In this document: positions 1 through 38,510 of the stretch, in pieces
Numbering within the stretch: the stretch's first letter is position 1
Layout of the letters: the number at the start of each line of letters is the position of its first letter
Assembly (NCBI GenBank): GCA_020629965.1
Contig: JAHDCG010000016.1
Coordinates: 1 to 64,000 of the forward strand
Direction: 5' to 3'
DNA: 64,000 nt
Source: Saprospiraceae bacterium
GTDB taxonomy: Bacteria > Bacteroidota > Bacteroidia > Chitinophagales > Saprospiraceae
The notes under the pieces: generated by a model
The model's database searches: none
Seen by the model: only the letters and a program-made list of their open reading frames with translations
What the model was told of the DNA's origin: nothing
Made by a program: the position numbers and the translations under genes

Positions 1-3000
1 TGCCCGTTTCACCGCATTCATCGGTGAAGTTTGCCGCGTCGTAGTTGCTGCTGAAGGTTACGCTGCCGCAATCATCGCTTGCAGTTGCGCCGCCGTTATT
101 AGATAACCAAGCGTCTAATGCTGCTTGTTGGTCGCCGTCGCATTCTACCCTTGCGTTTGCTGCTTCCGTGTCGAAAGTCGGTGCTTCGGTGTCAACGATG
201 ATGAAGGTTGCGGTCGTGCTTACAGAGTTTCCGCAGTCATCGCTGACCGTGAAGGTTACGCTTGCAAAACCGGTTGCGCCGCATTCGTCAGTCAGACTCG
301 TAAAGTCATTTTCCCAAGTCAAATCAGAGTCACAGGCATCGGTAGCGGTCGCGCCGCCGTTGCTTGCCAACCATGCTTCGAGTTCAGCTTCGTTGCCGCC
401 GCCGTCGCATTCTACCGTGAGGTCGCTTGCGCTCGCAACGATTTCGGGAGCGATGTCGTCTTCAATGGTAAAGGTCGCGGTAGTGCTGACTGCATTATCG
501 CAGTCATCCGTTGCGGTGAAGGTAACGGTAACGCTGCCCGCTTCGCCGCAGTCGGTGATGAAGTTATTTGCGTCATAATCGTTCGACCAATCAAGGTCAT
601 TGTCACACGCGTCGGTTGCTATTGCGCCGCCGTTACCGTTGAGCCAATTATTTAAGGCTTCGGTGTTGCCTGCGCCGTCACAAGGAACGGTCAGGTCATC
701 GGCTTCCGCCGTTAATGCGGGTGCGTTTTCGTCTTCGATGGTGAAGGTCGCGGTGGTGTTTACGGAATTTCCGCAGGCATCGCTTGCCGTGAAAACTACG
801 GTTACACTGCCCGTTGCGCCGCATTCGTCGGTGAAATTTGCTGCGTCGTAGTTGTTATCCCAAGTGATTTCGGTGCCGCTGCAAATGTCGCTTGCCGCCG
901 CGCCGCCTTGGTTGTTTAACCATGCGTTGAGGGCATCGGTATTGCCTGCGCCGTCACAATCGACGGTGAGGTCGCCGGCTTCGGTGTCGATGGTCGGTGC
1001 TTCGGTATCGACGATGATGAACAAGCCGGTAGTCGAGATGCTGTTGCCGCAGTCGTCGGTCGCGGTAAAAGTTACTACCGCGTTGCCCGTTGCGCCGCAT
1101 TCGTCGGAAAGGGTGCCGGAGTAATCGTTGCTCCACGTTAATTCCGCGTCGCAATCATCCGCAGCGGTTGCGCCGCCGTTGCTTTCCAACCAGGCTGCGA
1201 GTTCCGCTTCGTTCCCGCTGCCGTCGCACTCTACCGTGAGGTCGTTTGCTACGCCCGTGATTTCAGGATTGGTCGTATCGACAATGGTGAAAGTCGCTAC
1301 GGTATTGACGCTGTTGCCGCAATCGTCGCTCGCCGTGAAGGTGACTTCGACGCTGCCGGTGGTGCCGCAATCCAAGACGAAATTATTTTCGTCGTAATTG
1401 TTGGTAAATGTCACTTCGCTGCATGCATCGGTTGCCGCTGCACCTGCGTTGTCTGCCAACCATGCTGCCAAAGCCGCCTGTGCGTCGTCGTTGCATTCTG
1501 CGTTGGCGTTTTGCGCGCCGGTAGTGAAGACGGGTGCGGTATCATCGGTGACGGTGAAGGTCGCCGTGGTTTCCGCTGTATTGCCGCAGTCGTCGGTAGC
1601 GGTGAATGTTACGGTGACTGCGCCGGTTTCGCCGCATTCATCGGTGAAGTTTGCGGGCACATAGTCATTCGACCATTCGACCTCGCTACACAAATCGTTG
1701 GCTGCCGCGCCGGCATTGTTTGCCAACCAAGCATCGAGTTGTGCTTCTTGGTTGCCGTCACAAGCTACGGTTTCGTCTTGCGCCGCACTTTGGATATTCG
1801 GTGCGGTTTCGTCAATAATGGTGAAAGTCGCCGTGGTGCTTGCGCTGTTGCCGCAGTCGTCGGTCACGGTGAAGGTTATCGTTGCCGAACCCGTTGCGCC
1901 GCAATCATCGCTCAAGCCTACTTCGTCGAAGTTATTGGTCCAAGTGAAACCTTCGGTACAGTTGTCGGTGGCAATCGCGCCGCCGTTGCTGTTCAGCCAA
2001 TTTTCCAATTCGTTGCCGTTGGCGTCGGAGAAACAATCGACGGTTTGGTCAACCGCTTCCGTGCTAAACTCGGGCGCGCTGTTGTCTTCCAAAGTGAAAG
2101 TCGCCGTGGTACTTGCCGAGTTGCCGCAGTCATCAGTCGCAGTGAAAGTCACCGTCCAAGAACCGGTTAAACCGCAGTCCTGTACGAAGTTACCCGCGAG
2201 GTAGTCATTTTCCCAAGTGACGTTGTTGCCGCTGCATTGGTCGCTTGCGGTCGCGCCGCCGTTGTTCGCGAGCCAATCTTCGAGTTGTTGTACGTTGTTG
2301 TCAGAGTCACATTCTACGGTCATATCCTGCGCCTCGCCGTCAATGGTCGGCGGCGTGGTGTCGATAATGATGAAAGTCGCCGTGGTGCTTGCTGCATTAC
2401 CGCAGGCATCGGTGGCGGTAAAGGTGACGGACACAAAACCCGTTTCTCCGCATTCATCGCTGACGGGGTTGGTGTTGACATCATAGTTATTTGACCACAC
2501 AAAGTTGTCGTCGCATACATCGGTTGCGGTTGCGCCGCCGTTGTTTGCCAACCATTGATTAAGGTCGTCTTGATTACCCGAGCCATCGCATTCTACGGTA
2601 ATGTCGCTTGCTTCGACGGTGATTTCGGGTGCGTCATTGTCTTCAATGGTGAAGGTCGCGGTAGTATTTGCCGCATTTCCGCAGTCGTCGGTCGCCGTAA
2701 ATGTTACGGTAACGCTGCCGCTTGTACCGCAATCATCGCTGACGGGGTTGGTGTTTTCGTCGTAGTCATTTGACCAGGTCACTTCCGAACACAAATCATT
2801 TGCGCCCGCGCCGCCGTTGTCGTCCAACCATGCGTTGAGTGCATCCAAGTTGCCTTCGCCGTCACACTGTACGGTAAGGTCTTCGGCTTCGATGCCGATA
2901 CTCGGTGCGGTTTCGTCGATAATGGTGAAAGTTGCGGTGGTGCTTGTGGCATTGCCGCAGTTATCGGTCGCGGTGAAGGTCACGGTTACGCTGCCCGTTT

Positions 3001-4320
3001 CGCCGCACTCGTCGGTAAACGGATTGTTGACGGGGTCGTAATCGTTAGTCCAAGTGATTTCACCACACGCGTCGGTAGCTGTCGCCGAGCCGTTAAAATT
3101 CAGGAAGTTTTCAAACTGATTTTCGTTGCTCTCGGGGAAACAATCTACCGTGACATCCTGTGCCTCTGCCGTAATGGTCGGCGCAGTGGTGTCTTCAATG
3201 GTGAAAGTTGCCGCCGCCGTGGTGCTCAAACCACAGTCATCGGTTGCGGTGAAAATAACTTCAATAGAACCCGCCTGACCGCAATCGGTGGCGAAGTTGC
3301 CGAAGTTGTAATTATTCGTAATTTCAATATCGCTGCCGCTGCAAGAGTCGCTGAACTCCGCACCGCCGACATCCGCCAACCACTGGTTAATCAAATCCTG
3401 ATTGTTGGCAGGGTCACACTCAATGGTAATGTCCTGCGGCTCTACGTCAAAGACAGGCACGGAAGTATCGGTGATAGTGAAAGTTGCCGTAGTGCTGCTG
3501 CTGTTGTCGCAATCATCGGTCGCAGTAAAGGTAACGGTAGTGATTACCGTTGCGCCGCACTCCTCTTGGATGTTGACGATTTCGTTGCTCCAAGTCACGT
3601 CAGAACAAACGTCGCTTGCTTCCGCACCGCCGTTGTCTGCCAACCAATTTGCAAATTCCGCTTCGTTGCCGCCGCCGTCACACTCAACGGTGATGTCTTG
3701 CGCCTCGACGGTGATTTCGGGTGCGGTGGTGTCTTCAATGGTGAAGGTCGCCGTGGTACTGCTCGGGTTGCCGCAGTCATCAGTCGCGGTGAAAGTGACG
3801 GTCACGCTGCCCGTTGCGCCGCATTCGTCGCTGACGGGGTTGGTGTTTTCGTCAAAATCGTTACTCCAAGTTACCTCGCTGCAATCGTCGGAAGCTACGC
3901 CGCCGCCGTTGCTTGCCAACCAAGCGTTGAGGGCATCGGTATTACCGTTGCCGTCGCACTGTACGGTGAGGTCTTGTGCCTCGGTGTCAATGGTCGGTGC
4001 GATTTCATCGTTAATGGTGAAAGTCGCTGTGGTGCTTGTGGCGTTGCCGCATTCATCGGTTGCGGTGAAGGTAACGGTTACGCTGCCCGTGCCGCCGCAC
4101 TCGTCGCTCAGTTCCGCGCCGTCACCAAAGTTATTTGTCCAGACAAAGGCTGCATCACAGTTATCGGTCGCCGAAGCGTTACCGTTGTTATCGAGCCACG
4201 TTTGCAGAAGCGTTTGTGCGTCGTCGTTACAAGTCACGGTTTCGTCCTGTGCCTCTACGTCGATGACCGGTGCAGAAGTATCTTGTACGGTGATGACCTG
4301 TACGGCGGTGCTGACATTTT
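1..4320 (-). repeat. HYR-like domain array, about 16 units of about 270 bp
   Basis: Inside the giant adhesin the same coding block recurs roughly every 267-276 bp. Each unit ends with a T-V-T-F-T-A-T-D-D-C-G-N type strand, then a short TATFTI strand, an acidic DTxAP turn, an ECDG strand and a helix-like AWLANNGG segment, then a Trp-Asn-Asp strand. The cysteine pattern (one in ECD, one in DxCS, one in DECG, one in DDCGN) is nearly invariant and could form two disulfides per unit. Units differ by scattered substitutions, so this array is older or less homogenised than the 945-bp array. Confidence 0.85.
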
Positions 4321-7300
4321 GACAAATATCGGTTGCCGTCCACGTGCGGGTAATGGTGAAGGTGTAATCCTCGCAGGTTTCGGGGTCGCCCGATTGTGTG
4401 GTTACTTCCTCAAATTCTAATACTACACCCGGTTGGTCGCTTTCGTCGTCCACCATAACTACGGTGTAAAGCGCGGGCGGAGTCGGTACGGTTTCGTCGC
4501 ACTCAATGGTGATGTCAGCAGGTACGCCCGTGATGACCGGCGGAATGTTATCACACACAAAGTCGATGACTTCGATGTCGTGGTCGTCTTCGTCGCCGCC
4601 GTTGTTGTCGATTTCGTTATCGACCACGGTGTCGTTATCCGGGTCGGTATCGGGCGTAGAGTCGATGTCGTCGGCAGGTGCGCCGTTGGCATCGTTACCG
4701 CCCGTGATTTCGGTGAAGTTTTCGTAAATACCCGCTTCGGCATCGGCTTCTACCTGCAAAATCAGGTTCAAAGGCGTGCTGCCGCCGGGTGCAATTGCGC
4801 TGTTAATGGTATTGGTCAAATTACCGTCCGCCGTCGCGCTCCAACCGTTGCCGTCGTTGGGCGACAAGATGAAGTTTTCGGGCAAATAATCAATCACGTC
4901 GATGCCGTTTGCGGCTACCGTACCTTGGTTGAATACGGTAATCAAGAACTGCACATCTTCGCCCGCACGAATGGTGTCGGGTGCGTTGATGATTTCTTTG
5001 CGGATGGCTAAATCGTAGGTTTCTACGGTGAAAATGTCCTCGTCGGAGTCGTCTTCATCGTTGTTACCGTTGTCGATTTCGTTATCGGTGACGGGACCGT
5101 CGTTGTCGGGGTCGTTGTCGGCATCGGAGTCGATATCGTCGGCGTCTTCGCCAAATTCATCGGCATCGTCGCTGATTTCTACGAAGTTGCGGAGGTCGCC
5201 TGTTACACCTTCGTTTACACGGAAGGTAATGGTCAGGAACTCATCCTGACCGGGACCAACGGTTAATAAAGTATTGTAAACCGCTTGGTTGCCGTTGGCT
5301 GTCCACGCCGGATCTTCCAAGGTTAAACCGGTCGGGATGTAATCCGTGATTTCAATTTCGGAAGCCGCTACGGTACCTTGGTTGAAAACGCGCAGGTCGA
5401 AAGTGACCAAACGGTTTTGTAAAATCGGCTGCTGCGTAGAACCGCTGAGGGTTTTACGAATTGCCAAATCCAAAGTCTCTACGACGATGTCTTCCGGATC
5501 GGAGTCGTCTTCGTCGCCGCCTTGCTTACCGTTTTCTTCGGTTTCGTTGTCCGCGTCAGAGTTAACAACCGCTTGGTCGTTAGTCAAATCGGTGTCGGGT
5601 GTCGAGTCAAAATCCTCGGCAATAACACCAAATTCATCGGAAGCGGAAGAAATCTCCGCATTATTAGTCACCTGACCGGATACGCCGTCGTTGACCGTGA
5701 AAGTAATCGGCACGGTTACGTTGCTGTTGGCAGCGAGGTTGAACGGATTGTTCAAAGTCGCGATACCGGTAGTTGCGTTGTACGTCCAATCCGGGTCGTT
5801 CAAAGTGAACTCAGCCGGCACGTAATCCGCGAGGGCAATGTTGGTCGCATCGACCGTGCCCTGATTGGCTATTACGAGGTTGAAAGTGACGTCGCGGTTT
5901 TGCAAAATCGGCGATTGATTGGCGTTGAAGTCAAACAATTTAATCAAAGCCAAGTCAAAACGCTCGACGACAATCACTTCGATGTCGTGATCGTCTTCGT
6001 CGCCGTCGGTGTTGTCGAGTACGTTATCGACGACGGTGTCGTTGTCGTTGTTTTGGTCGGGCGTCGAGTCGATATCATCGGCAGGTACGCCGAATTCATC
6101 GTCAGCCTGACTGATTTCCGCGTAGTTTTCTAAACCGCCTTCGACAAAAGCATCGACGGTAAAGCTGATTTGGACGGTTTCATTTGCGCCCGGTTGTAAT
6201 GATAATTCGTTGTTAAACACCGCATTTGCGCCGTTCATCGTCCAACCGTTGTTAGCTACGAGCGTCAAGCCCGCAGGTACGTAGTCGATCAGTTCGATGC
6301 CGCTCGCGAAGACCGTGCCTTGGTTTTCGACGTAGATGTCGAAAATGACGGTACGACCCGCGATAATCGGCTGTTGGGTGTTGGTATTCAGCGTTTTACG
6401 CAGTGCCAAATCGTAAGTTTGAACGGTAACAATTGCAGGGTCGGCATCGTCTTCGTCGCCGCCTTGCTTACCGTTTTCTTCGGTCTCGTCGTCGCTTGCG
6501 CCGCCGGGTACGCCGCCGTTGTCGTTGGTTACGTCGGTGTCGGGTGTAGAGTCAAAGTCGATGACGTCCGCACCGAATTCGTCTTTAGCATCGCTGATTT
6601 CCGCACGGTTGACGAGGTCACCCGTTACGCCGCTATCGACGCGGAAAGTAATCGGCACGACGGTATTCATGCTTGCGTTGAGATTGAACGGGGTGTTCAA
6701 AGTCGCTACCGTGCCGTTTCCGTTTGCCGTCCAATCGCTGTCTTCCAAAGTCAAACCTTCGGGGATGTAATCCGTGAGGACAACGTTGGTCGCGTCGATG
6801 GTACCTTGGTTGGCAACGGTGATTTCAAAAGTCACCAAACGGTTTTGCAGGACAGGATTTTCGCTCAAGACATTGTTGAAAGTCTTGATTAAAGCGAGGT
6901 CAAAACGCTCGACAACGATAATTTCTACGTCGTGGTCGTCTTCGTCGCCGCCCGTGTTGTCGAGGACGTCATTAACTACGGTATCGTTGCCGTTGTCTTG
7001 GTCGTCGGTCGAGTCGATGTCATCGGCAGGTACGCCGAATTCGTCGTCCGCGCCGCTGATTTCCGCGAAGTTTTGCAAGCTGCCTTCGATAAATTCATCG
7101 ACGGTGAAGCTGATTTGTACGGTTTGATTTTCGCCGGGCTGCAAAGACAGTTCAGTGTCATATTCGGCGAGACCGCCGTTCATTGTCCAACCATTATTCG
7201 GTACGAGGGTCAAGCCCGCAGGTACGTAATCGGTCAGCTCAATGCCGCTCGCGAAGACCGTGCCTTGGTTTTCGACGTAGATGTCGAAAATGACGGTACG

Positions 7301-10300
7301 ACCCGTGACGATTGGTTGTTGGGTGTTGCTGTTTAAAGTTTTGCGTAATGCCAAATCGAAAGTTTGGACGGTAACAATCGCAGGGTCAGCGTCATCTTCG
7401 TCGCCGCCTTGCTTACCGTTTTCTTCGGTTTCGTCATCGCTTGCGCCGCCGGGTACACCGCCGTTGTCGTTGCCGACGTTGGCATCGGGAGTCGAGTCAA
7501 AGTCGATGACGTCCGCACCGAATTCGTCTTTGGCATCGCTGATTTCCGCACGGTTCACGAGGTCACCCGTTACGCCCGCGTTGACACGGAAGGTAATCGG
7601 AATGGTCGTGTTCATGGTGCTGTTCAAATTGAACGGTGTGTTCAAAGTCGCTACCGTACCCGCTGCGTTGGCTGTCCAATCGCTGTCTTCCAAAGTCAAA
7701 CCTTCGGGGATGTAATCGGTCAGGACAACGTTGGTCGCGTCGATGGTGCCTTGATTGGCTACGGTAATTTCAAAAGTCACCAAGCGGTTTTGCAGGACAG
7801 GATTTTCGCTTAAAACATTGTTGAAAGTCTTGATTAAAGCCAAGTCAAAACGCTCAACCACGATGATTTCAATATCGGAATCGTCTTCGTCGCCGCCCGT
7901 ATTATCGGTGACGCCGTCCACGATGGTGTCGTTGCTGTCATCTTGATCATCGGTCGAGTCGATGTCATCGGCAGGTACGCCGAATTCGTCGTCTGCGCCG
8001 CTGATTTCGGCGAAGTTTTGCAGGCTGCCCTCGATAAATTCATCGACGGTAAAGCTGATTTGTACGGTTTGGTCGTCACCGGGCTGCAAAGACAATTCGG
8101 TGTCGTATTCGGCGAGGTCGCCGTTCATAGTCCAACCGTTGCCGGGTACGAGGGTCAAGCCCGCAGGCACATAATCGGTCAGTTCAATGCCGCTCGCCAA
8201 AACCGTACCTTGGTTGATAACCTGAATGTCAAAAATGACGGTACGACCCGTGACAATCGGCTGTTGGGTATTGCTGTTCAGCGTTTTCAACAAAGCCAAA
8301 TCAAAAGTTTGGACAGTGACAATCGCAGGGTCAGCGTCATCTTCGTCGCCGCCTTGCTTACCGTTTTCTTCGGTTTCGTCATCGCTTGCACCGCCGGGTA
8401 CGCCGCCGTTGTCGTTGGCTGCGTCGGTATCGGGTGTCGAGTCAAAGTCAATGACGTCTGCGCCGAATTCGTCTTTGGCATCAGAAATCTCTGCGCGGTT
8501 GACTAAGTCGCCCGTTACACCGCTGTTGACACGGAAGGTAATCGGCACGACGTTATTCATGCTTGCGTTGAGGTCGAACGGTGTGTTCAAAGTCGCCACC
8601 GTACCCGCTGCGTTTGCCGTCCAATCACTGTCTTCCAAAGTCAAACCTGCGGGGATGTAATCGGTCAGGACAACGTTTGTCGCGTCGATTGTGCCTTGAT
8701 TGGCTACGGTAATTTCAAAAGTCACCAAGCGATTTTGTAAGACAGGATTTTCGCTCAAAACATTGTTGAAAGTCTTGATTAAAGCGAGGTCAAAACGCTC
8801 AACCACAATGATTTCAATATCGGAGTCGTCTTCGTCGCCGCCCGTATTATCGGTCACGCCGTCAACAATCGTGTCGTTGCTGTCGTCTTGGTCATCGGTC
8901 GAGTCGATGTCGTCGGCAGGTACACCGAATTCATCGTCCGCGCCGCTGATTTCCGCGAAGTTTTGGATGCTGCCTTCGATAAATTCATCGACGGTAAAGC
9001 TGATTTGTACGGTTTGGTCTTCACCGGGCTGCAAAGACAGCTCGGTGTTGTATTCGGCGAGGTCGCCGCTCATGGTCCAACCATTGCCGGGTACGAGGGT
9101 CAAGCCCGCCGGTACGTAATCGGTCAGTTCGATGCCGGTGGCAAAAACGTTGCCTTGGTTGATAACCTGAATGTCGAAAATGACGGTACGACCCGTGACA
9201 ATCGGCTGTTGGGTGTTGCTGTTCAGCGTTTTCAACAAAGCCAAATCGAAAGTTTGGACGGTCACAATCGCAGGGTCAGCGTCGTCTTCGTCGCCGCCTT
9301 GCTTACCGTTCTCTTCGGTTTCGTCGTCGGTTGCGCCGCCGGGTTCGCCGCCGTTATCATTGGCTACGTCCATGTCGGGCGTCGAGTCAAAGTCAATGAC
9401 GTCTGCGCCGAATTGGTCTTTAGCATCTTTGATTTCCGCACGGTTGACGAGGTCACCCGTCACGCCGCTGTTGACGCGGAAGGTAATCGGAATGACGGTA
9501 TTACCCGGTGCCGGTAAGTCAAAGGTATTGTTCAAAGTCGCCATGGTACCCGCCGCGTTGGCAGTCCAATCGCTGTCTTCGAGGGTCAAACCTGCGGGAA
9601 TGTAGTCTACCAATTCAATCGCCGTAGCGGGAATTGTACCTTGGTTGGCAACGGTAATTTCAAAAGTCACCAAACGGTTTTGCAGGACAGGATTTTCACT
9701 TAAAACGCTGTTGAAGGTTTTAATCAAAGCCAAGTCAAAACGCTCGACGACGATGATTTCGATATCGTGGTCGTCTTCGTCGCCGTCCGTGCCGTCGAGT
9801 ACATCATTGACTACGGTGTCGTTTCCGTTGTTTTGGTCGTCGGTCGAGTCGATGTCGTCGGCAGGTACACCGAATTCGTCGTCCGCGCCGCTGATTTCGG
9901 CGAAGTTTTGCAGGCTGCCTTCGACAAATTCATCAACGGTGAAAGTGATTTGGACGGTTTGGTTGTCGCCCGGTTGTAATGATAATTCCGTGTCGTATTC
10001 GGCGACCGCGCCGTTCATAGTCCAACCGTTGTTCGGTACGAGAGTCAAACCCGCCGGTACGTAATCGGTCAGTTCTATGCCGGTGGCAAAAACGTTGCCT
10101 TGGTTTTCGACGTAGATGTCAAAAATGACGGTACGACCCGTGACGATCGGCTGCTGCGTATTGCTGTTCAAAGTTTTGCGCAAAGCCAAATCGAAAGTTT
10201 GGACGGTCACAATCGCAGGATCGGCATCGTCTTCGTCGCCGCCTTGCTTACCGTTTTCTTCGGTTTCGTCGTCGCTCGCGCCGCCGGGTTCGCCGCCGTT

Positions 10301-13300
10301 GTCGTTGGCTACGTCCATATCGGGCGTCGAGTCAAAATCGATGACATCCGCACCGAATTCATCTTTGGCGTCTTTGATTTCCGCACGGTTTACGAGGTCG
10401 CCGGTCACACCCGCATCGACGCGGAAGGTAATCGGGATGACGGTGTTTTGTCCGTTGTTCAAGCTAAAAGGCGCGTTGAGTGTCGCCATAGTACCCGCTG
10501 CGTTGGCAGTCCAATCGCTGTCTTCCAAGGTCAAACCTGCGGGGATGTAATCCACCAATTCGACTTGCGTAGCGGGGATTGTGCCTTGGTTGGCGACCAT
10601 AATTTCAAAGGTTACCAAACGGTTTTGCAATACGGGATTTTGACTCAAAACATTGTTGAAAGTCTTGATAATCGCGAGGTCAAAACGCTCGACGAGGATG
10701 ATTTCCAAATCAGAGTCGTCTTCGTCGCCGTCCGTGCCGTCGAGTACGCCGTCCACTACGGTATCGTTGCCGTCATTTTGGTCGGGCGTCGAGTCGATGT
10801 CGTCGGCAGGGTTGCCGCTTTCGTCGTCGGCTTGGCTGATTTCCGCAAAGTTTTGGATGCTGCCTTCGGTAAATTCATCAACCGTGAAGGTAATTTGTAC
10901 GGTTTGGTTTTCGCCGACACCGAGAGATAATTCAGTATTAAAGACCGCCAAACCGCCGCTGACACTCCAACCGTTGCCGGGTACGAGAGTCAGACCCGCA
11001 GGAATGTTATCGGTCAATTCGATGCCCGAAGCGGGTACGGTACCTTGGTTTTCAACGTAGATGTCAAAAATGACCGTGCGACCGGTGACGATAGGCTGTT
11101 GCGTATTGCTGTTCAGTGTTTTCAACAAAGCCAAATCGAAGGTTTCGACGGTGACTATGGCAGGGTCGGCATCGTCTTCGTCGCCGCCTTGCTTACCGTT
11201 TTCTTCGGTCTCGTCGTCGCTTGCACCGCCGGGAACGCCGCCGTTGTCGTTGTCGGGGTTCATGTCGGGCGTCGAGTCAAAATCGATGACGGTCACGCCG
11301 TTGGGGTCGGTTGCGTTTTTAATTTCCGCGCGGTTGACGAGGTCGCCCGTTACGCCCGCATTGACGCGGAAGGTAATCGGTACGACGTTATTTTGCCCGA
11401 CACCGAGGGTGAACGGGTTGTTGAGGGTCGCCATAGTACCCGCTGCATTTGCCGTCCAATCGCTGTCTTCCAAAGTCAAACCTGCGGGGATATAATCGAC
11501 AAGTTCGACGTTGGTCGCGCCGATTGTACCTTGGTTGGCAACGGTGATTTCAAAAGTAATTAAGCGGTTTTGCAGGACGGGATTTTCACTCAAATTTGAG
11601 TTAAAAGTCTTGATAATTGCCAAGTCAAAACGCTCGACGAGAATGGTCTCGATGTCGTGGTCGTCTTCGTCGCCGCCCGTGTTGTCGGTTACGCCGTCCA
11701 CTACGGTGTCGTTGCCGTTGTTTTGGTCGTCGGTCGAGTCGATGTCATCGGCGGGCACGCCGAATTCATCGTCTGCGCCGCTGATTTCCGCAAAGTTTTG
11801 GATGCTGCCTTCGACAAATTCATCAACGGTGAAGCTGATTTGTACGGTTTGATTTTCGCCGGGCTGTAAAGATAATTCGGTGTCGTAAACCGCGACAGCG
11901 CCGTTCATGCTCCAACCGTTGTTGGGTACGAGGGTCAAGCCTGCGGGTACGTAATCAGTCAGTTCAATGCCGGTAGCAAAAACGTTGCCTTGGTTAATGA
12001 CATTGATGTCGAAAATTACGGTGCGACCGGTCACAATCGGCATGATTGTACCCGAGTTGACGGATTTGGTCAAAGCTAAATCGAAAGTACGCACATTGAC
12101 CAACGCGGGGTCGGCGTCATCTTCGTCACCGCCTTGCTTACCGTTTTCTTCGGTTTCGTTGTCGGTCGGTGTGCCTACCTGACCGCCGTTGTCGTTGTTC
12201 GGATTGGTATCGGGTGTCGAGTCAAAATCTTCGATAGCGTCGCCGTTTTCGTCTTTGGCGTCACTGATTTCTGCGCGGTTAATTAAGTCGCCGGTCACGC
12301 CGCTGTTGACGCGGAAGGTAATCGGCACGGTGTTGTTCATGTTGGCGTTGAGGTTGAACGGAGTGTTCAAAGTCGCTACCGTACCCGCTGCATTTGCCGT
12401 CCAAGCGGGGTCTTCGAGGGTCAGGCCTGCGGGGATGTAATCGACGAGGCGCACCTGCGTCGCATCGACCGTACCTTGGTTGGCGACCATGATTTCAAAG
12501 GTTACCAAACGGTTTTGCAGGACAGGATTTTGGCTTAAAACGCTGTTGAAAGTTTTGATAATCGCCAAGTCAAAGCGATCGACCAAAACAGGTTCTACGT
12601 CGGCGTCATCTTCGTCGCCGCCGCCGTTATTGATTTCGTTATCAACCAAAGTATCGTTGCCTTGGTTCATATCGGGCGTCGAGTCCACATCGGGTACTTG
12701 GTCGCCGTTGTTGTCGCGAGCCGCTTTGATTTCGGCAAAGTTTAAGATTTCACCTTCGACAAAATCATTGACTTGGAAGCGGATTTGTACGGTTTGGTTG
12801 CCGCCGGCGTTGATACTCAAAGGGTTATTCAAAGTTGCCATGCCACCGTTGGCAGTCCAAGCGTTGTCTGCCAAAGTGAAGCCCGCAGGAATGTAATCTA
12901 CGATTTCGATTCCTTGTGCATTGACCGTACCTTGATTGAAAACCTGAATGTTGAAAGTCACAAAACGACCTGCCACGAGCGGGCTGTCGGTTTGGTTGTT
13001 GTTGACGGTTTTGCGCAGCGCGAGGTCAAAAACTTCGACCTGCAAAGGCTCGCGGTCGGCATCGTCTTCGTCGCCGCCGTTGTTGTTGATTTCGTTATCG
13101 ACTTCGTTGCCGTCGTTGCCGGGATTGCCGTCGGGTGTAGAGTCGATGTCCACGTTAGTAAAGCCTGCGGGTGCGTTTGCGCCTGTGATTTCGGCGCGGT
13201 TAATGATTTCGCCCTGAAAGTCTTGTGTGACTAAGAAGGTAATGTCAACGAAAGCAGATTGGTTGGGCTGAATGGTGCCGGGCAGTTGAATACTCGCCTG

Positions 13301-16300
13301 ACCGCCGCCGCCGGCTTGTGTCCAATCGCTGTCTTGCAATGCCAAACCTGTCGGAATATAGTCCACGACATTAACCGCCGAAGCGGGAATGCTGCCTTGG
13401 TTGAAAACCTCGATGCGGAAAGTGACGGTTTCACCTTTATATACGATGTTGTCGTCTTCGCCCGGAGCGAGGGTTTTACGGAGTGCCAAGTCAAAGCCGT
13501 CCACGCGCACGCTGCGCTGACAAGCAGCAGAATTTCCGCAGACATCGGTGACGGTTAAAGTTACGCTTTGACTGGTGCCAAGGTCAGAAACGTCAAAGTC
13601 TTCCTGTGAGAGTTCAAAAGTCAACGGGCTGCAGTTATCGGTGCTGCCGCAGTCAATGTCGGACGGGTCAATGCTCGCCTGACCGTTGGCGTCGAGCTGA
13701 ATGTCGGTATCTTCACAGCAGATGTCCGGGTCGGTGTCGTCACGGACGGAAAGTGTTTGCGTGCGGGTGATAGAGTTGCCGCAATCATCGGTGGCGCGCC
13801 ACCTGCGCTCGATGGTGTATTGGTAGGCGTTACATTGATTTGGGTCGTTGCCTTGGTTATCGGTTTGACCGAGGTATTCTACGTTGACGTTGTCGTCGCA
13901 GTTGTCTGAAGCAGTGACAATTGCCGGACCGGGGATGTTATCGCACTCAGCGGTTTGGTCGGCGGGGAAGTTGTTGAAAGTAGGGTCGGTGTTGTCATTC
14001 ACCGTGATAATCTGTGTGTGCGAAGCTTCATTACTGCAACCGTCGGTAGCTTGCCAAGTGCGTACAATTGTGTAATCACAGTCTGTATTTTCGGGTTGAC
14101 AATCATTCACCGAACCGGAGAGAATAAGATTAAAATCACCGTTTTGCGTACCGGTAGAACCTACGAAGCCGGGTACGAGGGTCGTTCCGTTACCGGGTTG
14201 GGAAATAACATCCACGTCAAACCATACGGCAAGACCTAGACCGGCTTGGAAGTTGGAAGCACCGATACCGATTTGAGTAGCGGGACCGAAACGCGTGATG
14301 TTAAGGGTTGCTCCGTTGAAATCACCCTGACCGGTCAACGTACCGTTCATGCCGATGTAGTAATAAAAGGTAGAAACATCAGGATTGGAGCAACTTTCCT
14401 CTAATTTAGGACTGCCCGGAGGTGTAGAAAAAGTACGTCCGAACAAATTGACCGTATAATCGAAACGTTGGTTACCGTTAGCAACGTTCGTTGCTGAACC
14501 CGTGATAGTTGCCGTACCGTCATTGCGCTCAACAATAGAGGCATTGTTGATACTGTAATTGTCCGTAAATCCTTCGAAAGGTAAGGTCAATCCTTTTGCA
14601 GGAGAGCCGTTACAACGGTTAATATCGCTGACACTACGATTGGTACATGCCTCAATATTACTTTCATAACGCACCTCACTGAAGTCCAAAATAACGGGGT
14701 AATTGCTACAGTTATCACTGACCGTCACATTAGCAGGCACGGGAACATCATCAGTACACTGTACATTCAAATCATTTGGGGTATTAGACAAGACAGGAGG
14801 TGTATCTTCACCGATATTGATGTAAACCCAAGCCTCGTCACAACATATTTCCGCATTGATACCTTCGTTACAAACCCGATATCTGAAAAAGTCGGGTGCA
14901 CACATGGTACTACCCGTTGCCTGATAGTTAAATTGACCGTTATTATCAATGGTGACACTACCATTGTAAGGTCCTTCAACGACCGTAATCGTCGGGTTAG
15001 ACACATTATTATCATTATTTAATACGTTGCCGGAAATATTTCCGTTGCCGCAATCGCTGCTGATGTTATTATCGTACACCGCATTGGGTTGTACGCAGGT
15101 AATACATTCGGCTATTGCGTTGACGAAACCCGCAACGACATAAGACTGACCGTTTTCACCGTTCCAACCGGGCCAGCCACTGTACTGACTTTGGTTTTGT
15201 TGCGGAGAAATCAAACGGAAACTGATATTGGTCACGTTGCCGGGTACGTTGTTGAGGGTACGGGTAATGACGTCGATACAACAAGGATTCAAGTCACCGG
15301 GATTCCATTTTTCCGTCCAACGTTCGTTGGCACTGCCGCCCGTTGCTTCCAAAAGTAAAACCCGCCCGTCGAGGGTAATTTCGGACATCGGCATTTGTAA
15401 AAATACATCACGCGGTCCCTGCGCGGCGGGTATCGGAAGGTTGAAAGTAATTTCGCTGTGGTAGCCGCTGTTGTAAGTATAGATTCCGGACTGGACGGAG
15501 CCGGTACTAATTTGTCGATTAACAAAAAGAGCTAAAGATTGGGCGTCGTGTTCGTTGGCTTCATTGAAATAAGAAACCGAAGAAACCGCCGGCAAAAAGG
15601 CACGATAGACCCAAACATTGGTACTGCTGCCAAAAGGTGTAGTGCGGGTAGCGGTATAGCTACCGCCGTCATCATCCCAAAGAACAATACTCGAACCGGG
15701 GTTGCTGCCTTTGTAAACAACTTCAGCGACAATGTCGAGGACGTTTCCGCTGTTCGGTACGTTGAGCGTAGTCGGTACATTATTTTTCAGACCGCGTGTG
15801 TAAATATCTACACGCTGCCCGTCGTCACAATCGGTCGCCACATCGGGTTCGAGAGCACAATCGACGACGGCATTCACCAAACCGGCCACCACGTAAGACT
15901 GACCGTTGTTACCGTTCCAGCCCGGCCAGCCGCTATACTGACTTTGGTTTTGTTGCGGAGAAATCAAGCGAAAAGCGACATTAGTGACATTGCCCGGCAC
16001 ATTTAACAAAGTGCGCTCAATAACATCGATACAGCAGGGATTTAAGTCGCCGGAGTTCCATTGCTCCGTCCAACGTTGAGTCACATTGCCGGCGGTAGCT
16101 TCCAAAAGGAGCACGCGACCGTCGAGGGTAATTTCGGACATCGGCATGCGCACGACGAGGTTACGTGACTCGGAAGCTGCGGGTATCGGCAGGTTGAACG
16201 TAATCTCGCTGTGGTAGCCGCTGACGTAAGTATATTTTCCCGATTGCGCCGAGCCTTTGACATCTTGACGGTACACATAAAGGGCGAGTGACTGCGCGTC

Positions 16301-17671
16301 GTGTTCGTTGGTTTGATTATTATAAGTAACGCCGGAAGTGGCGGGCAGGTAGGCGCGATAAAGCCACACATTCGAGCTGTTGCCGAAAGGCGTGGTGCGC
16401 TGCGCGGTGTAAGCATTGCCCGAGGCATCGAAAATGTTAATCGAACTGCCGGGGTTGCTGTGTTTGTAAACGATTTCGGCGACGACGGAAGTAACATTTT
16501 CCGAATTGGGAACGTGCAAAGTAGCGGGTACATTATTTTGCAGACCTAAGGTGTATAAATCGACCCGCTTCTCATCGTCACAGTTGAAAATGAAATCTTC
16601 GTCCGAGTTGCTCGAATCGCAGGGTACATTGTCGTTAGATTCTGATTTTATATTCAATTCGATGTCACCGAAGCAGATGTGTTGTAACTGACCGTTAGCG
16701 ATGCTGTGTGTGTAGAAATTAAAATCCACGACATTGGTTCCGCCGAAAATGTAGTTGACGGTATTCAAATCAACCGGGTAACTAATCGTACGCAGATTTT
16801 CGGGCTGACATACATCTTGTACACATTTCAACTCGACAGGGTCGAAGTAGCCGATAATGGTTCCGTTTAACTCGATTGGATAGCTAAGGCTAACCTGATT
16901 GACACTGCTCGGGTCGGTATTTTCCTGATAGTCACAAGCGGCAACATTAAAGGTAATGGTAAATTCTGTCACTTTACGTCCGATATTACCAATCGGATCG
17001 GAAAATACAGCTTTATCCTGATCATTGTTTTGGTAAAAATCATCGGTGGTAGAAGAATAATTCGAGCCGCATATATTGTTGGAAGTACCGGCCTGACCAT
17101 AAAGTGTCCACTGATCCATAAACACGGTGTGCGTTGACTCCTCACAAGGAACAGCGCAGGCAGTACTTGAAGAGGCAATAGTTACATTGCCGAAGTAGGC
17201 AGCATCGCAACCGTTAGCATCGGTGATTTTAATTTGCGAGTAGGTGCCGGGTTCTAAATTATAAAAGTAGTAATCATCGAAACCGTCGGTAGCACCGACG
17301 GGTCCTTTGGAGCCGGCTACACCGTCGCGCACGTAGTGCAGGTTAATCGGACCGGTAGTGCCGCAATTCGTACAGACATCGACGTGAATCATGCCGCCGA
17401 TACCATTGCAGGCTTCGTTGTGTGCGTAAAGATTATCAATAGAACACGTCATAGAATTAGCCGCGAACGCAGGTAATTCCTCGGCACCAAAACCCGAGGT
17501 GCGCAGGTTGGCTTTGACCTGACCGGCGAGGTGCGCTGTCACAGAGTTGAAAAATTTGCTGTTGGGCTTTTCGAGGGAGTTAAAAGCGAATAGTGCGGTC
17601 AGAACAGCCGCGAACAAAGCAAAGAAGAGAACTTTGGCGAATGACTGAAAAGAAGGTCGAACTTGTACCAT
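1..17671 (-). CDS. Giant secreted repeat adhesin (DUF11 + HYR-like), C-terminus outside window
   Basis: An uninterrupted minus-strand frame runs from an ATG at 17671 to the window edge, giving at least 5,890 residues with no stop seen. Residues 1 to about 28 form a signal peptide with a hydrophobic core rich in Phe, Ala and Leu. Residues to about 870 are a Cys-rich unique region with a duplicated module. At about 870-1390 there are Ig/HYR-like segments. From about 1390 to 4400 there are about 19 DUF11-like domains (motifs such as DLALRKTL, NQGT, DYVPAGL) separated by acidic Asp/Glu linkers of DxDxD type. From about 4400 onward there are about 16 HYR-like domains (motifs VTFTATDDCGN, TATFTI, ECDG). 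Such proteins in Bacteroidota are large surface adhesins or gliding/matrix proteins, usually exported by T9SS; the sorting domain would be beyond position 1. The acidic linkers suggest calcium binding (inference). A 1.2-kb intergenic region precedes the gene. The exact function and ligand are unknown. Confidence 0.9.
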   Translation of the reverse strand, partial: MVQVRPSFQSFAKVLFFALFAAVLTALFAFNSLEKPNSKFFNSVTAHLAGQVKANLRTSGFGAEELPAFAANSMTCSIDNLYAHNEACNGIGGMIHVDVCTNCGTTGPINLHYVRDGVAGSKGPVGATDGFDDYYFYNLEPGTYSQIKITDANGCDAAYFGNVTIASSSTACAVPCEESTHTVFMDQWTLYGQAGTSNNICGSNYSSTTDDFYQNNDQDKAVFSDPIGNIGRKVTEFTITFNVAACDYQENTDPSSVNQVSLSYPIELNGTIIGYFDPVELKCVQDVCQPENLRTISYPVDLNTVNYIFGGTNVVDFNFYTHSIANGQLQHICFGDIELNIKSESNDNVPCDSSNSDEDFIFNCDDEKRVDLYTLGLQNNVPATLHVPNSENVTSVVAEIVYKHSNPGSSINIFDASGNAYTAQRTTPFGNSSNVWLYRAYLPATSGVTYNNQTNEHDAQSLALYVYRQDVKGSAQSGKYTYVSGYHSEITFNLPIPAASESRNLVVRMPMSEITLDGRVLLLEATAGNVTQRWTEQWNSGDLNPCCIDVIERTLLNVPGNVTNVAFRLISPQQNQSQYSGWPGWNGNNGQSYVVAGLVNAVVDCALEPDVATDCDDGQRVDIYTRGLKNNVPTTLNVPNSGNVLDIVAEVVYKGSNPGSSIVLWDDDGGSYTATRTTPFGSSTNVWVYRAFLPAVSSVSYFNEANEHDAQSLALFVNRQISTGSVQSGIYTYNSGYHSEITFNLPIPAAQGPRDVFLQMPMSEITLDGRVLLLEATGGSANERWTEKWNPGDLNPCCIDVITRTLNNVPGNVTNISFRLISPQQNQSQYSGWPGWNGENGQSYVVAGFVNAIAECITCVQPNAVYDNNISSDCGNGNISGNVLNNDNNVSNPTITVVEGPYNGSVTIDNNGQFNYQATGSTMCAPDFFRYRVCNEGINAEICCDEAWVYINIGEDTPPVLSNTPNDLNVQCTDDVPVPANVTVSDNCSNYPVILDFSEVRYESNIEACTNRSVSDINRCNGSPAKGLTLPFEGFTDNYSINNASIVERNDGTATITGSATNVANGNQRFDYTVNLFGRTFSTPPGSPKLEESCSNPDVSTFYYYIGMNGTLTGQGDFNGATLNITRFGPATQIGIGASNFQAGLGLAVWFDVDVISQPGNGTTLVPGFVGSTGTQNGDFNLILSGSVNDCQPENTDCDYTIVRTWQATDGCSNEASHTQIITVNDNTDPTFNNFPADQTAECDNIPGPAIVTASDNCDDNVNVEYLGQTDNQGNDPNQCNAYQYTIERRWRATDDCGNSITRTQTLSVRDDTDPDICCEDTDIQLDANGQASIDPSDIDCGSTDNCSPLTFELSQEDFDVSDLGTSQSVTLTVTDVCGNSAACQRSVRVDGFDLALRKTLAPGEDDNIVYKGETVTFRIEVFNQGSIPASAVNVVDYIPTGLALQDSDWTQAGGGGQASIQLPGTIQPNQSAFVDITFLVTQDFQGEIINRAEITGANAPAGFTNVDIDSTPDGNPGNDGNEVDNEINNNGGDEDDADREPLQVEVFDLALRKTVNNNQTDSPLVAGRFVTFNIQVFNQGTVNAQGIEIVDYIPAGFTLADNAWTANGGMATLNNPLSINAGGNQTVQIRFQVNDFVEGEILNFAEIKAARDNNGDQVPDVDSTPDMNQGNDTLVDNEINNGGGDEDDADVEPVLVDRFDLAIIKTFNSVLSQNPVLQNRLVTFEIMVANQGTVDATQVRLVDYIPAGLTLEDPAWTANAAGTVATLNTPFNLNANMNNTVPITFRVNSGVTGDLINRAEISDAKDENGDAIEDFDSTPDTNPNNDNGGQVGTPTDNETEENGKQGGDEDDADPALVNVRTFDLALTKSVNSGTIMPIVTGRTVIFDINVINQGNVFATGIELTDYVPAGLTLVPNNGWSMNGAVAVYDTELSLQPGENQTVQISFTVDEFVEGSIQNFAEISGADDEFGVPADDIDSTDDQNNGNDTVVDGVTDNTGGDEDDHDIETILVERFDLAIIKTFNSNLSENPVLQNRLITFEITVANQGTIGATNVELVDYIPAGLTLEDSDWTANAAGTMATLNNPFTLGVGQNNVVPITFRVNAGVTGDLVNRAEIKNATDPNGVTVIDFDSTPDMNPDNDNGGVPGGASDDETEENGKQGGDEDDADPAIVTVETFDLALLKTLNSNTQQPIVTGRTVIFDIYVENQGTVPASGIELTDNIPAGLTLVPGNGWSVSGGLAVFNTELSLGVGENQTVQITFTVDEFTEGSIQNFAEISQADDESGNPADDIDSTPDQNDGNDTVVDGVLDGTDGDEDDSDLEIILVERFDLAIIKTFNNVLSQNPVLQNRLVTFEIMVANQGTIPATQVELVDYIPAGLTLEDSDWTANAAGTMATLNAPFSLNNGQNTVIPITFRVDAGVTGDLVNRAEIKDAKDEFGADVIDFDSTPDMDVANDNGGEPGGASDDETEENGKQGGDEDDADPAIVTVQTFDLALRKTLNSNTQQPIVTGRTVIFDIYVENQGNVFATGIELTDYVPAGLTLVPNNGWTMNGAVAEYDTELSLQPGDNQTVQITFTVDEFVEGSLQNFAEISGADDEFGVPADDIDSTDDQNNGNDTVVNDVLDGTDGDEDDHDIEIIVVERFDLALIKTFNSVLSENPVLQNRLVTFEITVANQGTIPATAIELVDYIPAGLTLEDSDWTANAAGTMATLNNTFDLPAPGNTVIPITFRVNSGVTGDLVNRAEIKDAKDQFGADVIDFDSTPDMDVANDNGGEPGGATDDETEENGKQGGDEDDADPAIVTVQTFDLALLKTLNSNTQQPIVTGRTVIFDIQVINQGNVFATGIELTDYVPAGLTLVPGNGWTMSGDLAEYNTELSLQPGEDQTVQISFTVDEFIEGSIQNFAEISGADDEFGVPADDIDSTDDQDDSNDTIVDGVTDNTGGDEDDSDIEIIVVERFDLALIKTFNNVLSENPVLQNRLVTFEITVANQGTIDATNVVLTDYIPAGLTLEDSDWTANAAGTVATLNTPFDLNASMNNVVPITFRVNSGVTGDLVNRAEISDAKDEFGADVIDFDSTPDTDAANDNGGVPGGASDDETEENGKQGGDEDDADPAIVTVQTFDLALLKTLNSNTQQPIVTGRTVIFDIQVINQGTVLASGIELTDYVPAGLTLVPGNGWTMNGDLAEYDTELSLQPGDDQTVQISFTVDEFIEGSLQNFAEISGADDEFGVPADDIDSTDDQDDSNDTIVDGVTDNTGGDEDDSDIEIIVVERFDLALIKTFNNVLSENPVLQNRLVTFEITVANQGTIDATNVVLTDYIPEGLTLEDSDWTANAAGTVATLNTPFNLNSTMNTTIPITFRVNAGVTGDLVNRAEISDAKDEFGADVIDFDSTPDANVGNDNGGVPGGASDDETEENGKQGGDEDDADPAIVTVQTFDLALRKTLNSNTQQPIVTGRTVIFDIYVENQGTVFASGIELTDYVPAGLTLVPNNGWTMNGGLAEYDTELSLQPGENQTVQISFTVDEFIEGSLQNFAEISGADDEFGVPADDIDSTDDQDNGNDTVVNDVLDNTGGDEDDHDVEIIVVERFDLALIKTFNNVLSENPVLQNRLVTFEITVANQGTIDATNVVLTDYIPEGLTLEDSDWTANGNGTVATLNTPFNLNASMNTVVPITFRVDSGVTGDLVNRAEISDAKDEFGADVIDFDSTPDTDVTNDNGGVPGGASDDETEENGKQGGDEDDADPAIVTVQTYDLALRKTLNTNTQQPIIAGRTVIFDIYVENQGTVFASGIELIDYVPAGLTLVANNGWTMNGANAVFNNELSLQPGANETVQISFTVDAFVEGGLENYAEISQADDEFGVPADDIDSTPDQNNDNDTVVDNVLDNTDGDEDDHDIEVIVVERFDLALIKLFDFNANQSPILQNRDVTFNLVIANQGTVDATNIALADYVPAEFTLNDPDWTYNATTGIATLNNPFNLAANSNVTVPITFTVNDGVSGQVTNNAEISSASDEFGVIAEDFDSTPDTDLTNDQAVVNSDADNETEENGKQGGDEDDSDPEDIVVETLDLAIRKTLSGSTQQPILQNRLVTFDLRVFNQGTVAASEIEITDYIPTGLTLEDPAWTANGNQAVYNTLLTVGPGQDEFLTITFRVNEGVTGDLRNFVEISDDADEFGEDADDIDSDADNDPDNDGPVTDNEIDNGNNDEDDSDEDIFTVETYDLAIRKEIINAPDTIRAGEDVQFLITVFNQGTVAANGIDVIDYLPENFILSPNDGNGWSATADGNLTNTINSAIAPGGSTPLNLILQVEADAEAGIYENFTEITGGNDANGAPADDIDSTPDTDPDNDTVVDNEIDNNGGDEDDHDIEVIDFVCDNIPPVITGVPADITIECDETVPTPPALYTVVMVDDESDQPGVVLEFEEVTTQSGDPETCEDYTFTITRTWTATDICQNVSTAVQVITVQDTSAPVIDVEAQDETVTCNDDAQTLLQTWLDNNGNASATDNCDAAFVWTNNFGDGAELSDECGGTGSVTVTFTATDECGNATSTTATFTINDEIAPTIDTEAQDLTVQCDGNGNTDALNAWLASNGGGVASDDCSEVTWSNDFDENTNPVSDECGATGSVTVTFTATDDCGNPSSTTATFTIEDTTAPEITVEAQDITVECDGGGNEAEFANWLADNGGAEASDVCSDVTWSNEIVNIQEECGATVITTVTFTATDDCDNSSSTTATFTITDTSVPVFDVEPQDITIECDPANNQDLINQWLADVGGAEFSDSCSGSDIEITNNYNFGNFATDCGQAGSIEVIFTATDDCGLSTTAAATFTIEDTTAPTITAEAQDVTVDCFPESNENQFENFLNFNGSATATDACGEITWTNDYDPVNNPFTDECGETGSVTVTFTATDNCGNATSTTATFTIIDETAPSIGIEAEDLTVQCDGEGNLDALNAWLDDNGGAGANDLCSEVTWSNDYDENTNPVSDDCGTSGSVTVTFTATDDCGNAANTTATFTIEDNDAPEITVEASDITVECDGSGNQDDLNQWLANNGGATATDVCDDNFVWSNNYDVNTNPVSDECGETGFVSVTFTATDACGNAASTTATFIIIDTTPPTIDGEAQDMTVECDSDNNVQQLEDWLANNGGATASDQCSGNNVTWENDYLAGNFVQDCGLTGSWTVTFTATDDCGNSASTTATFTLEDNSAPEFSTEAVDQTVDCFSDANGNELENWLNSNGGAIATDNCTEGFTWTNNFDEVGLSDDCGATGSATITFTVTDDCGNSASTTATFTIIDETAPNIQSAAQDETVACDGNQEAQLDAWLANNAGAAANDLCSEVEWSNDYVPANFTDECGETGAVTVTFTATDDCGNTAETTATFTVTDDTAPVFTTGAQNANAECNDDAQAALAAWLADNAGAAATDACSEVTFTNNYDENNFVLDCGTTGSVEVTFTASDDCGNSVNTVATFTIVDTTNPEITGVANDLTVECDGSGNEAELAAWLESNGGATAADDCDAELTWSNDYSGTLSDECGATGNAVVTFTATDDCGNSISTTGLFIIVDTEAPTIDTEAGDLTVDCDGAGNTDALNAWLNNQGGAAASDICSGTEITWDNNYDAANFTDECGATGSVTVVFTASDACGNSVNTTATFTIEDENAPALTAEADDLTVPCDGAGNTEALNNWLNGNGGAIATDACDNDLDWSNDYDANNFITDCGEAGSVTVTFTATDDCDNAVSTTATFTIEDDIAPEIVASASDLTVECDGGGNEAELEAWLASNGGATATDACDSDLTWENDFTSLTDECGATGFASVTFTVSDDCGNSVSTTATFIIVDTEAPTFDTEAANARVECDGDQQAALDAWLSNNGGATASDDCGSVTFSSNYDAANFTDECGETG
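4545..13500 (-). repeat. DUF11-like domain array with acidic linkers, about 19 units
   Basis: Alternating domains of about 155-160 residues occur in two flavours. One carries VTVQTFDLALRKTLN-like openings and a conserved GKQGGDEDDADP linker before it. The other carries VERFDLALIKTFN-like openings and a DDIDST...NDTVV linker. The shared core (fall-in of NQGT, DYxPxGL, WT, ITFxV, EISxAxDEFG) fits the DUF11/conserved-repeat family of stalk-like Ig domains. The linkers carry several DxDxD/DxDxxxD stretches reminiscent of calcium-binding thrombospondin type 3 sequences. Confidence 0.8.
5896..12520 (-). repeat. Exact 945-bp tandem super-repeat, seven consecutive intervals
   Basis: The anchor ggttttgcag (one or two substitutions allowed) starts at 5896, 6841, 7786, 8731, 9676, 10621, 11566 and 12511: seven intervals of exactly 945 bp. 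A second anchor, gtacgacccg, starts at 6351, 7296, 8241, 9186, 10131, 11076 and 12021: six intervals of exactly 945 bp. Each 945-bp unit encodes 315 residues, that is one pair of DUF11 domains. No indel has accumulated in over 6.6 kb. Confidence 0.93.
15085..16600 (-). repeat. 753-bp in-frame intragenic duplication
   Basis: Two consecutive modules of 251 codons in the N-terminal part of the giant adhesin are near copies. The block gactgacc...gttcca occurs at 15144 and again at 15897 (753 bp apart), and paired blocks run throughout. Both copies encode VDIYT/VDLYT, NVPNS, HDAQSLAL, GYHSEITFNLP, MSEITLDGRVLLLEAT and SGWPGWNG motifs. It is not a family I recognise; two surface-lectin-like or wall-binding modules are possible but unsupported. 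Confidence 0.85.
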
Positions 17672-18900
17672 AATGACTGATTGTAGTTTTCGGTTTGCAA
17701 AAACCGAGATAGTGTTTTGTTTCGGTAAAATGCTGTAAACAATTACTATAAGCAAAAACAAGCCCGGTATCTCCGGGGGGAAGAAATTAAGGCGTGAAAA
17801 ATTGTAAAAACATGTGCGGAAATACAGGAGGGATTTGTATTCCGAAAAACCGCGAACGGTTCGATTGTGTGTTTGTAAAGTTATTGTTTCGGCCTAAAGG
17901 GAGGTAAAGCCGTATTGTATATGGTAGAGTACAGAGGAGGTAGTTTGCAAAGAAAACTATGTCTTCATTTGCTCTATTGTTACGCAAAATCGGAAATAAG
18001 TCACTTTTAACTGTGCTTTTTCAAAAAAAAAGGGGGAATTTGCCCGAATTGCTTTGTCGATTGTGACAAAAAAGACGGGACTTTAATAAAATTAAATACA
18101 AAAAGAACATATTTGAGGGAGGGGGTTTCGGAAAAAACGGAGCTAAAGCCCTTTATTTTCCTTTCATTCTTCAAATATAGGTCTTTTGTAAAAGAAAAAA
18201 CAGCGAATGAGTAACTTTCGGGAAAAATGTTATCGGCACAAGGGAAAATCGGAACAGTCAACAGCGGGTTAGTTACGTTTATTACTTTGTTAATGAGCGA
18301 AAAACGCATAAGAAAAACATGCCGGATGATGAGAAAAAAAAGTTTGAATGCTGTCACATTTTTTCAATTTTACCGAAAATCAATAATCGGCAATTTTGTG
18401 ACAGGGTAAACTTAAAAATATAAACGAAATAAATATAGGTTTTACTTTTGTTAAGGCTCCCCTTCATCTTACTTCAAAAGCAGTACCAAAAACGGCGAAG
18501 AGGTCGGAGAGCAAAGGAAGTCAGAGAGAATAAGCCGTTTCACCCGAGTGCATGCGGAATGCTGACGGCTTCGGATTCGGGGATTTTAAATATTAGGTAA
18601 AAATGGTATGAGTGACGTTGTTTTGGGGGAGCGGGGAATATGCGGTTTTTGTTTTTTTCTTCATGTTTGGATTGGAATCAGAATTGAGGGGGGATAGTTT
18701 ATTTTGTGGTTTAAATTTGTGCATCGAACGACCCGACGTAATAATGTATGAGTAGCTTTTTGTCCTAAACCTTTAGACTAAATCAGGCGATTAGTCCGAA
18801 ATGTAATCATTTAAAAACTGCTGCTTGTACGTTAAACTAAAACGAACGGTTATCCGATACTTATTTTCGCAGATAAATCGCCTTCAAAACCCGTTTCAGT
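17672..18900. other. 1.2-kb intergenic region upstream of giant adhesin
   Basis: No convincing gene is seen; short frames here lack plausible composition. It is AT-rich. A minus-strand TATATTTG (18172-18179) and a plus-strand TACTTTTG (18443-18450) match the Bacteroidota -7 element TAnnTTTG, but neither has a well-spaced upstream TTG, and both would leave leaders of more than 400 nt. The region probably holds the adhesin's regulatory DNA. Confidence 0.5.
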
Positions 18901-38413: not shown

Positions 38414-38419
38414 AATTTG

Positions 38420-38510
38420 TTGTCGGTTGTCGGTTGTCGGTTGTCGGTTGTCGGTTGTCGGTTGCCGGTTGCCGGTTGCCGGTTGTCGGTTGCCGGTTGC
38501 CGGTTGCCCG
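38420..38510 (+). repeat. 13-copy 7-bp tandem array TTGYCGG
   Basis: Thirteen consecutive units of TTGTCGG or TTGCCGG (the last is TTGCCCG) with no indel. Order: six T units, three C units, one T unit, then C units. It is the purest tract in the window and lies directly upstream of the SDR start at 38413. Confidence 0.95.

Follow-up and report, generated by a model that had tools for sequence, protein, structure and literature searches.

A DUF11 domain (PF01345) has been shown by crystallography to form an internal isopeptide bond, and the family has been renamed CLIPPER (PMC12617251). In fibrillar adhesins, DUF11/CLIPPER domains build stalks as tandem repeats lying mid-way in long surface proteins, each repeat being an Ig-like beta-sandwich with a Lys-Asp-Asn triad, and alternation of two related domain types, DUF11 and DUF7507, has already been reported (PMC12617251; PMC9210967). 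Periscope Proteins also have stalks of tandem, highly similar folded domains, the number of which varies by whole units; they depart from the rule that adjacent domains in large multidomain proteins usually share less than 50% identity (PMC8201768). In Bacteroidota, the SprB-type gliding adhesins, which are T9SS type B proteins, are giant and repetitive surface proteins (PMC12635249). Among the papers searched, none dealt with DUF11 in Saprospiraceae.

We analysed a window of 64,000 nucleotides, which begins at base 1 of contig C10 in a draft genome of a Saprospiraceae bacterium (291 contigs, 6.52 Mb). One open frame of the window (2-17761, minus strand; likely start codon at 17671) encodes a giant protein whose C-terminus is missing, because the contig starts inside the gene. 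This protein is a new example of the already known bacterial adhesin stalk type: it shares with the CLIPPER stalks the domain family, the Ig-like beta-sandwich, the triad and the mid-way tandem repeats. In contrast to known CLIPPER stalks, it has a fixed pair of 163 and 152 aa, long acidic linkers and HYR arrays, and its homologues have a T9SS type B tail. The reported DUF11/DUF7507 alternation also differs, as both partners here score as DUF11. As in Periscope Proteins, for which long tandem repeats of about 80% identity or more are characteristic, the 315-aa units are 77-91% identical in protein, reaching at least 83% in five of the six neighbouring pairs. In DNA, however, the units are less alike (75-86%) than Periscope repeats, the variation in number is seen between species only, and adjacent domains stay about 46% identical, because the repeat is a pair of unlike domains. 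The SprB-type adhesins resemble the giant protein in size, repetitiveness and the type B domain of its homologues. They differ in that no SprF/PorP gene was recognised next to the homologues, and any link of the giant protein to gliding would be speculative.

The 945-bp register and its DUF11 pairs

The array repeats with an exact period of 945 bp. Over 5700-12700, DNA self-identity was 0.81 at an offset of 945, in contrast to 0.29 at 942 and 948 and about 0.23 at unrelated offsets. A repeat search returned families of eight copies, spaced by 945 seven times, and others of seven copies, spaced by 945 six times. Eight copies of the 12-mer TCTTCGTCGCCG, which encodes part of a GDEDD motif, follow one another at intervals of exactly 945 bp (5994...12609). 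Ten 12-mers are each found seven times in the same register. These results bear out the initial annotation, which had reported two words repeated at 945-bp spacing in eight and seven copies. The period comprises seven complete units (5960-12574) and part of an eighth.

Each unit was also correctly described as a pair of DUF11 domains, here named A (163 aa) and B (152 aa). In unit 5, the PF01345 scores were 47.7 bits for A and 49.5 bits for B, with a gathering cut-off of 24.6, and every domain scanned along the whole array matched above the cut-off. The B domain also matches DUF7507, slightly below the cut-off of that family. The giant protein contains 19 DUF11 domains in all, with spacings of 155 and 152, then alternating 163 and 152, and finally 162 and 152 (Table 1).

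Table 1. Features of the giant gene, in window coordinates
Feature	Position	Strand	Remarks
Giant surface-protein ORF	2..17671	-	5,890 aa or more, counted from Met (MVQVRPSFQ...); lacks its 3' end, window starts at contig start
Signal-peptide-like N-terminal segment	17575..17671	-	hydrophobic, VLFFALFAAVLTALFAF; judged by eye
N-terminal module 1	15860..16582	-	241 aa, all-beta and outside Pfam families; candidate tip
N-terminal module 2	15107..15829	-	241 aa, 74% identical to module 1
DUF11 domain 1	13031..13495	-	155 aa
DUF11 domain 2	12575..13030	-	B type, 152 aa
Array unit 1	11630..12574	-	A domain 3 and B domain 4
Array unit 2	10685..11629	-	domains 5 and 6
Array unit 3	9740..10684	-	domains 7 and 8
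Array unit 4	8795..9739	-	domains 9 and 10
Array unit 5	7850..8794	-	domains 11 and 12; structure predicted
Array unit 6	6905..7849	-	domains 13 and 14
Array unit 7	5960..6904	-	domains 15 and 16
DUF11 domain 17	5474..5959	-	diverged A type, 162 aa; one codon shorter, ends exact register
DUF11 domain 18	5018..5473	-	152 aa
DUF11 domain 19	4562..5017	-	
HYR-like domain array	2..4561	-	about 90 aa each, conserved Cys; runs into contig end

Searches with the G079 tail (see below), the first 600 bases and the HYR array found no contig that continues the giant gene. C108 was ruled out as its continuation, as it sits inside a 43.9-kb contig. Elsewhere in the window, the heptamer GTTGTCG is repeated 12.6 times (96% match) at 38419-38506, adjoining an SDR oxidoreductase ORF; this tract is a possible phase-variable repeat.

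Age of the copies and origin of the register

We compared the divergence of the copies with that of orthologous domains from two other species, G079 and G168 (genus g79). Between whole units, identity was 75-86% in DNA and 77-91% in protein, with dN of 0.06-0.20 and dS of 0.56-1.03; the copies are, thus, similar, as the initial annotation had it, but not nearly identical. For single domains, dS between units ranged from 0.35 to 1.14. The G079 and G168 orthologous domains gave dS of 0.46-1.71. Since the two ranges are similar, the copies are old, with a divergence comparable to that between species. The sequence and the length of the copies are under purifying selection.

The exact register and the high identity had been read as signs of recent tandem expansion or gene conversion, and the two parts of this reading fared differently. 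If the seven units had been copied lately, there would have been too little time for indels, which would account for exact register over 6.6 kb, and some segments are indeed 92-94% identical (for example, B of units 4 and 5, with dS of 0.35). However, the dS of whole units is at the level of species divergence, no exact repeat in the array is longer than 71 bp, and truly young DUF11 arrays of the family look different, although they too are in exact register. In the single-contig genome G062, such an array has a 399-bp register and units 92-96% identical, and its exact repeat measures 464 bp; in G085:C4 the units are 423 bp, some of them are 100% identical, and an exact repeat extends over 1,280 bp. 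Both arrays are repeats of single domains. We therefore reject recent expansion, which is very improbable given the dS values and the contrast with these arrays. The array of identical units in G085:C4 (L131; contig positions about 349372-350970) is itself of truly recent origin, and is a more promising place to look for strain-level variation in length.

Nor does the register require a special process, although it is at the upper end among the arrays compared, being the longest run of equal steps among those fetched. On the domain tree, 2.88 substitutions per site in the g79 lineage were accompanied by three length changes, and 1.12 in the core A and B domains of the array by none. At the g79 rate only about 1.2 length changes would be expected in the core array, and the probability of none is about 0.31, so that the register is expected without recent copying.

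Exchange between the copies fared better than recency. A run test on the seven units was significant both for silent columns (p=0.0035) and for all variable codons (p=0.0005), which suggests that tracts of sequence were exchanged or duplicated out of step. Ongoing gene conversion, by which an old array would be homogenised and kept in register while its divergence understates its age, is a plausible explanation to which we give somewhat less than even weight. The run test fits it, as do the shift of the nearest other unit along the length of a unit, the grouping of core copies by genome and the greater divergence of the array edges than of its centre. Staggered duplications of one or two pairs, however, yield the same mosaic, and most silent sites still differ, hence any conversion must be slow. 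Gene conversion is compatible with the explanation that we favour, in which ancestral pairs have diverged since they were copied, and differs from it on what keeps the copies alike. An assembler that added, collapsed or forced copies into register is very unlikely to have produced the array, even though the draft is fragmented, the contig ends inside the other repeat array of the giant gene, and a contig of a same-genus genome ends within the repeated N-terminal module. Every unit has differences of its own, an open reading frame spans the whole array, and the A/B lengths recur in separately assembled genomes of other species. Collapse of the array, of which the initial annotation had warned, is likewise unlikely with no exact repeat above 71 bp, though some identical copies may be hidden.

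Growth of the array by pairs in related genomes

Named relatives were mainly Saprospiraceae metagenome assemblies. On the domain tree, the A domains from the five genomes group in a single clade (support 99/92) before they split by lineage; the B domains follow the same pattern, more weakly. The A/B domain lengths are the same in three genera. The unlike pair is, thus, ancestral and predates the split of at least three genera, and each lineage has extended or homogenised its array separately.

The stalk had been predicted to vary in length between strains; the variation that we observed, by whole units, was between two species of one genus: G079 has 19 DUF11 domains and G168 has 15. Domains 1-6 and 15-19 of G079 pair with domains 1-6 and 11-15 of G168. 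Domains 7-10 and 11-14 of G079 are both nearest to domains 7-10 of G168, with weaker support at some forks, which points to a duplication of two A/B pairs (four domains, 7-10) in the G079 lineage. That the giant protein and G079 have the same count of 19 is probably a coincidence. The proteins of G079 and G168 have the common layout HYR-DUF11-HYR but lack the N-terminal modules of the giant protein, and may therefore be domain-sharing homologues rather than strict orthologues. Essentially no gene neighbourhood was conserved with either. The closest relative in layout was found in G332 (genus g63), which has both N-terminal modules and the A/B pairs; the same-genus genome G001 contained no assembled array, but just an N-terminal module lying where a contig ends.

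Structure, sorting and the unlike neighbours

The array probably belongs to the stalk of a giant fibrillar adhesin of the T9SS type B kind, in which the A/B pairs are ancestral and the copies have since diverged. It would encode part of a rigid stalk of isopeptide-forming (CLIPPER) domains, in a layout running from the N-terminal modules through the stalk to a cell-surface anchor. Each lineage has lengthened its array by whole A/B pairs, and the copy number would set the reach of the adhesin; growth by pairs keeps neighbouring domains unlike, and may thereby limit misfolding.

The AlphaFold2 model of unit 5 (A-B; pLDDT 85.7) consists of two Ig-like beta-sandwiches with acidic joining loops of low confidence. 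Foldseek matched it to Ig-like domains of integrins and of PrgB; a sequence search of solved structures gave no match. The likeness to the Ig-like CnaA type is at the level of the beta-sandwich, rather than of a CnaA topology traced strand by strand. The Lys/Asp/Asn triad is present in all 19 DUF11 domains of the giant protein, and across 67 domains Lys was found in 67, Asp in 64 and Asn in 66. These conserved residues suggest internal isopeptide bonds in the stalk domains. In three domains, 8 and 12 of G079 and 8 of G168 (L064, L085), the catalytic Asp of the triad is replaced by Glu.

The N-terminal modules (15107-16582, minus strand) represent an undescribed all-beta domain family, and relatives of the 241-aa module are present in 84 of the 398 genomes of the bacterial family. 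Their only fold matches are weak and carbohydrate-binding-like (TM about 0.3). From their position and this weak match, the modules are candidates for the adhesive part of the protein.

The initial annotation had taken the array for a surface stalk, and this is likely: the protein has a signal-like N-terminus and 19 tandem stalk domains, and the homologues in G079 and G168 each have a C-terminal T9SS type B domain (TIGR04131). Type B sorting of the giant protein was read from these homologues, because its own C-terminus lies outside the assembly; its export, anchoring and adhesion are, likewise, predictions from the sequence. In the ORF lists of G079 and G168, no PorP/SprF gene was recognised directly downstream. 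In the giant protein's own genome, substrates with a type B tail outnumber PorP-family carriers (82 matches and 21, respectively). The window also encodes a second giant protein (3,629 aa; 21798-32687, minus strand) with a complete T9SS type B tail, and a 453-aa protein (58313-59674, plus strand) with acidic double-disulfide-like repeats and such a tail, within whose gene lies a 93-bp DNA repeat (59018-59328).

Within the core array, adjacent domains are 44-47% identical and next-but-one domains 76-95%; in G079 and G168, adjacent domains reach 50-61%. The unlike pair could be the unit of growth by a folding constraint, in that domains next to each other would fold separately only at an identity below about 50%. 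We regard this as rather doubtful, and shared descent alone would also give unlike neighbours.

A perfect register in a coding array is no clock, because in-frame length changes in DUF11 domains are rare relative to substitutions. The position-by-position trees of two species document the gain of exactly two domain pairs by one stalk. If the folding constraint is real, the conservation of the A/B lengths and the identity gap across three genera would be a mark of that selection, and a stalk could vary in length within the rule of low identity between neighbours, from which Periscope Proteins depart. This suggests a testable reason for the growth of stalks by unlike pairs.
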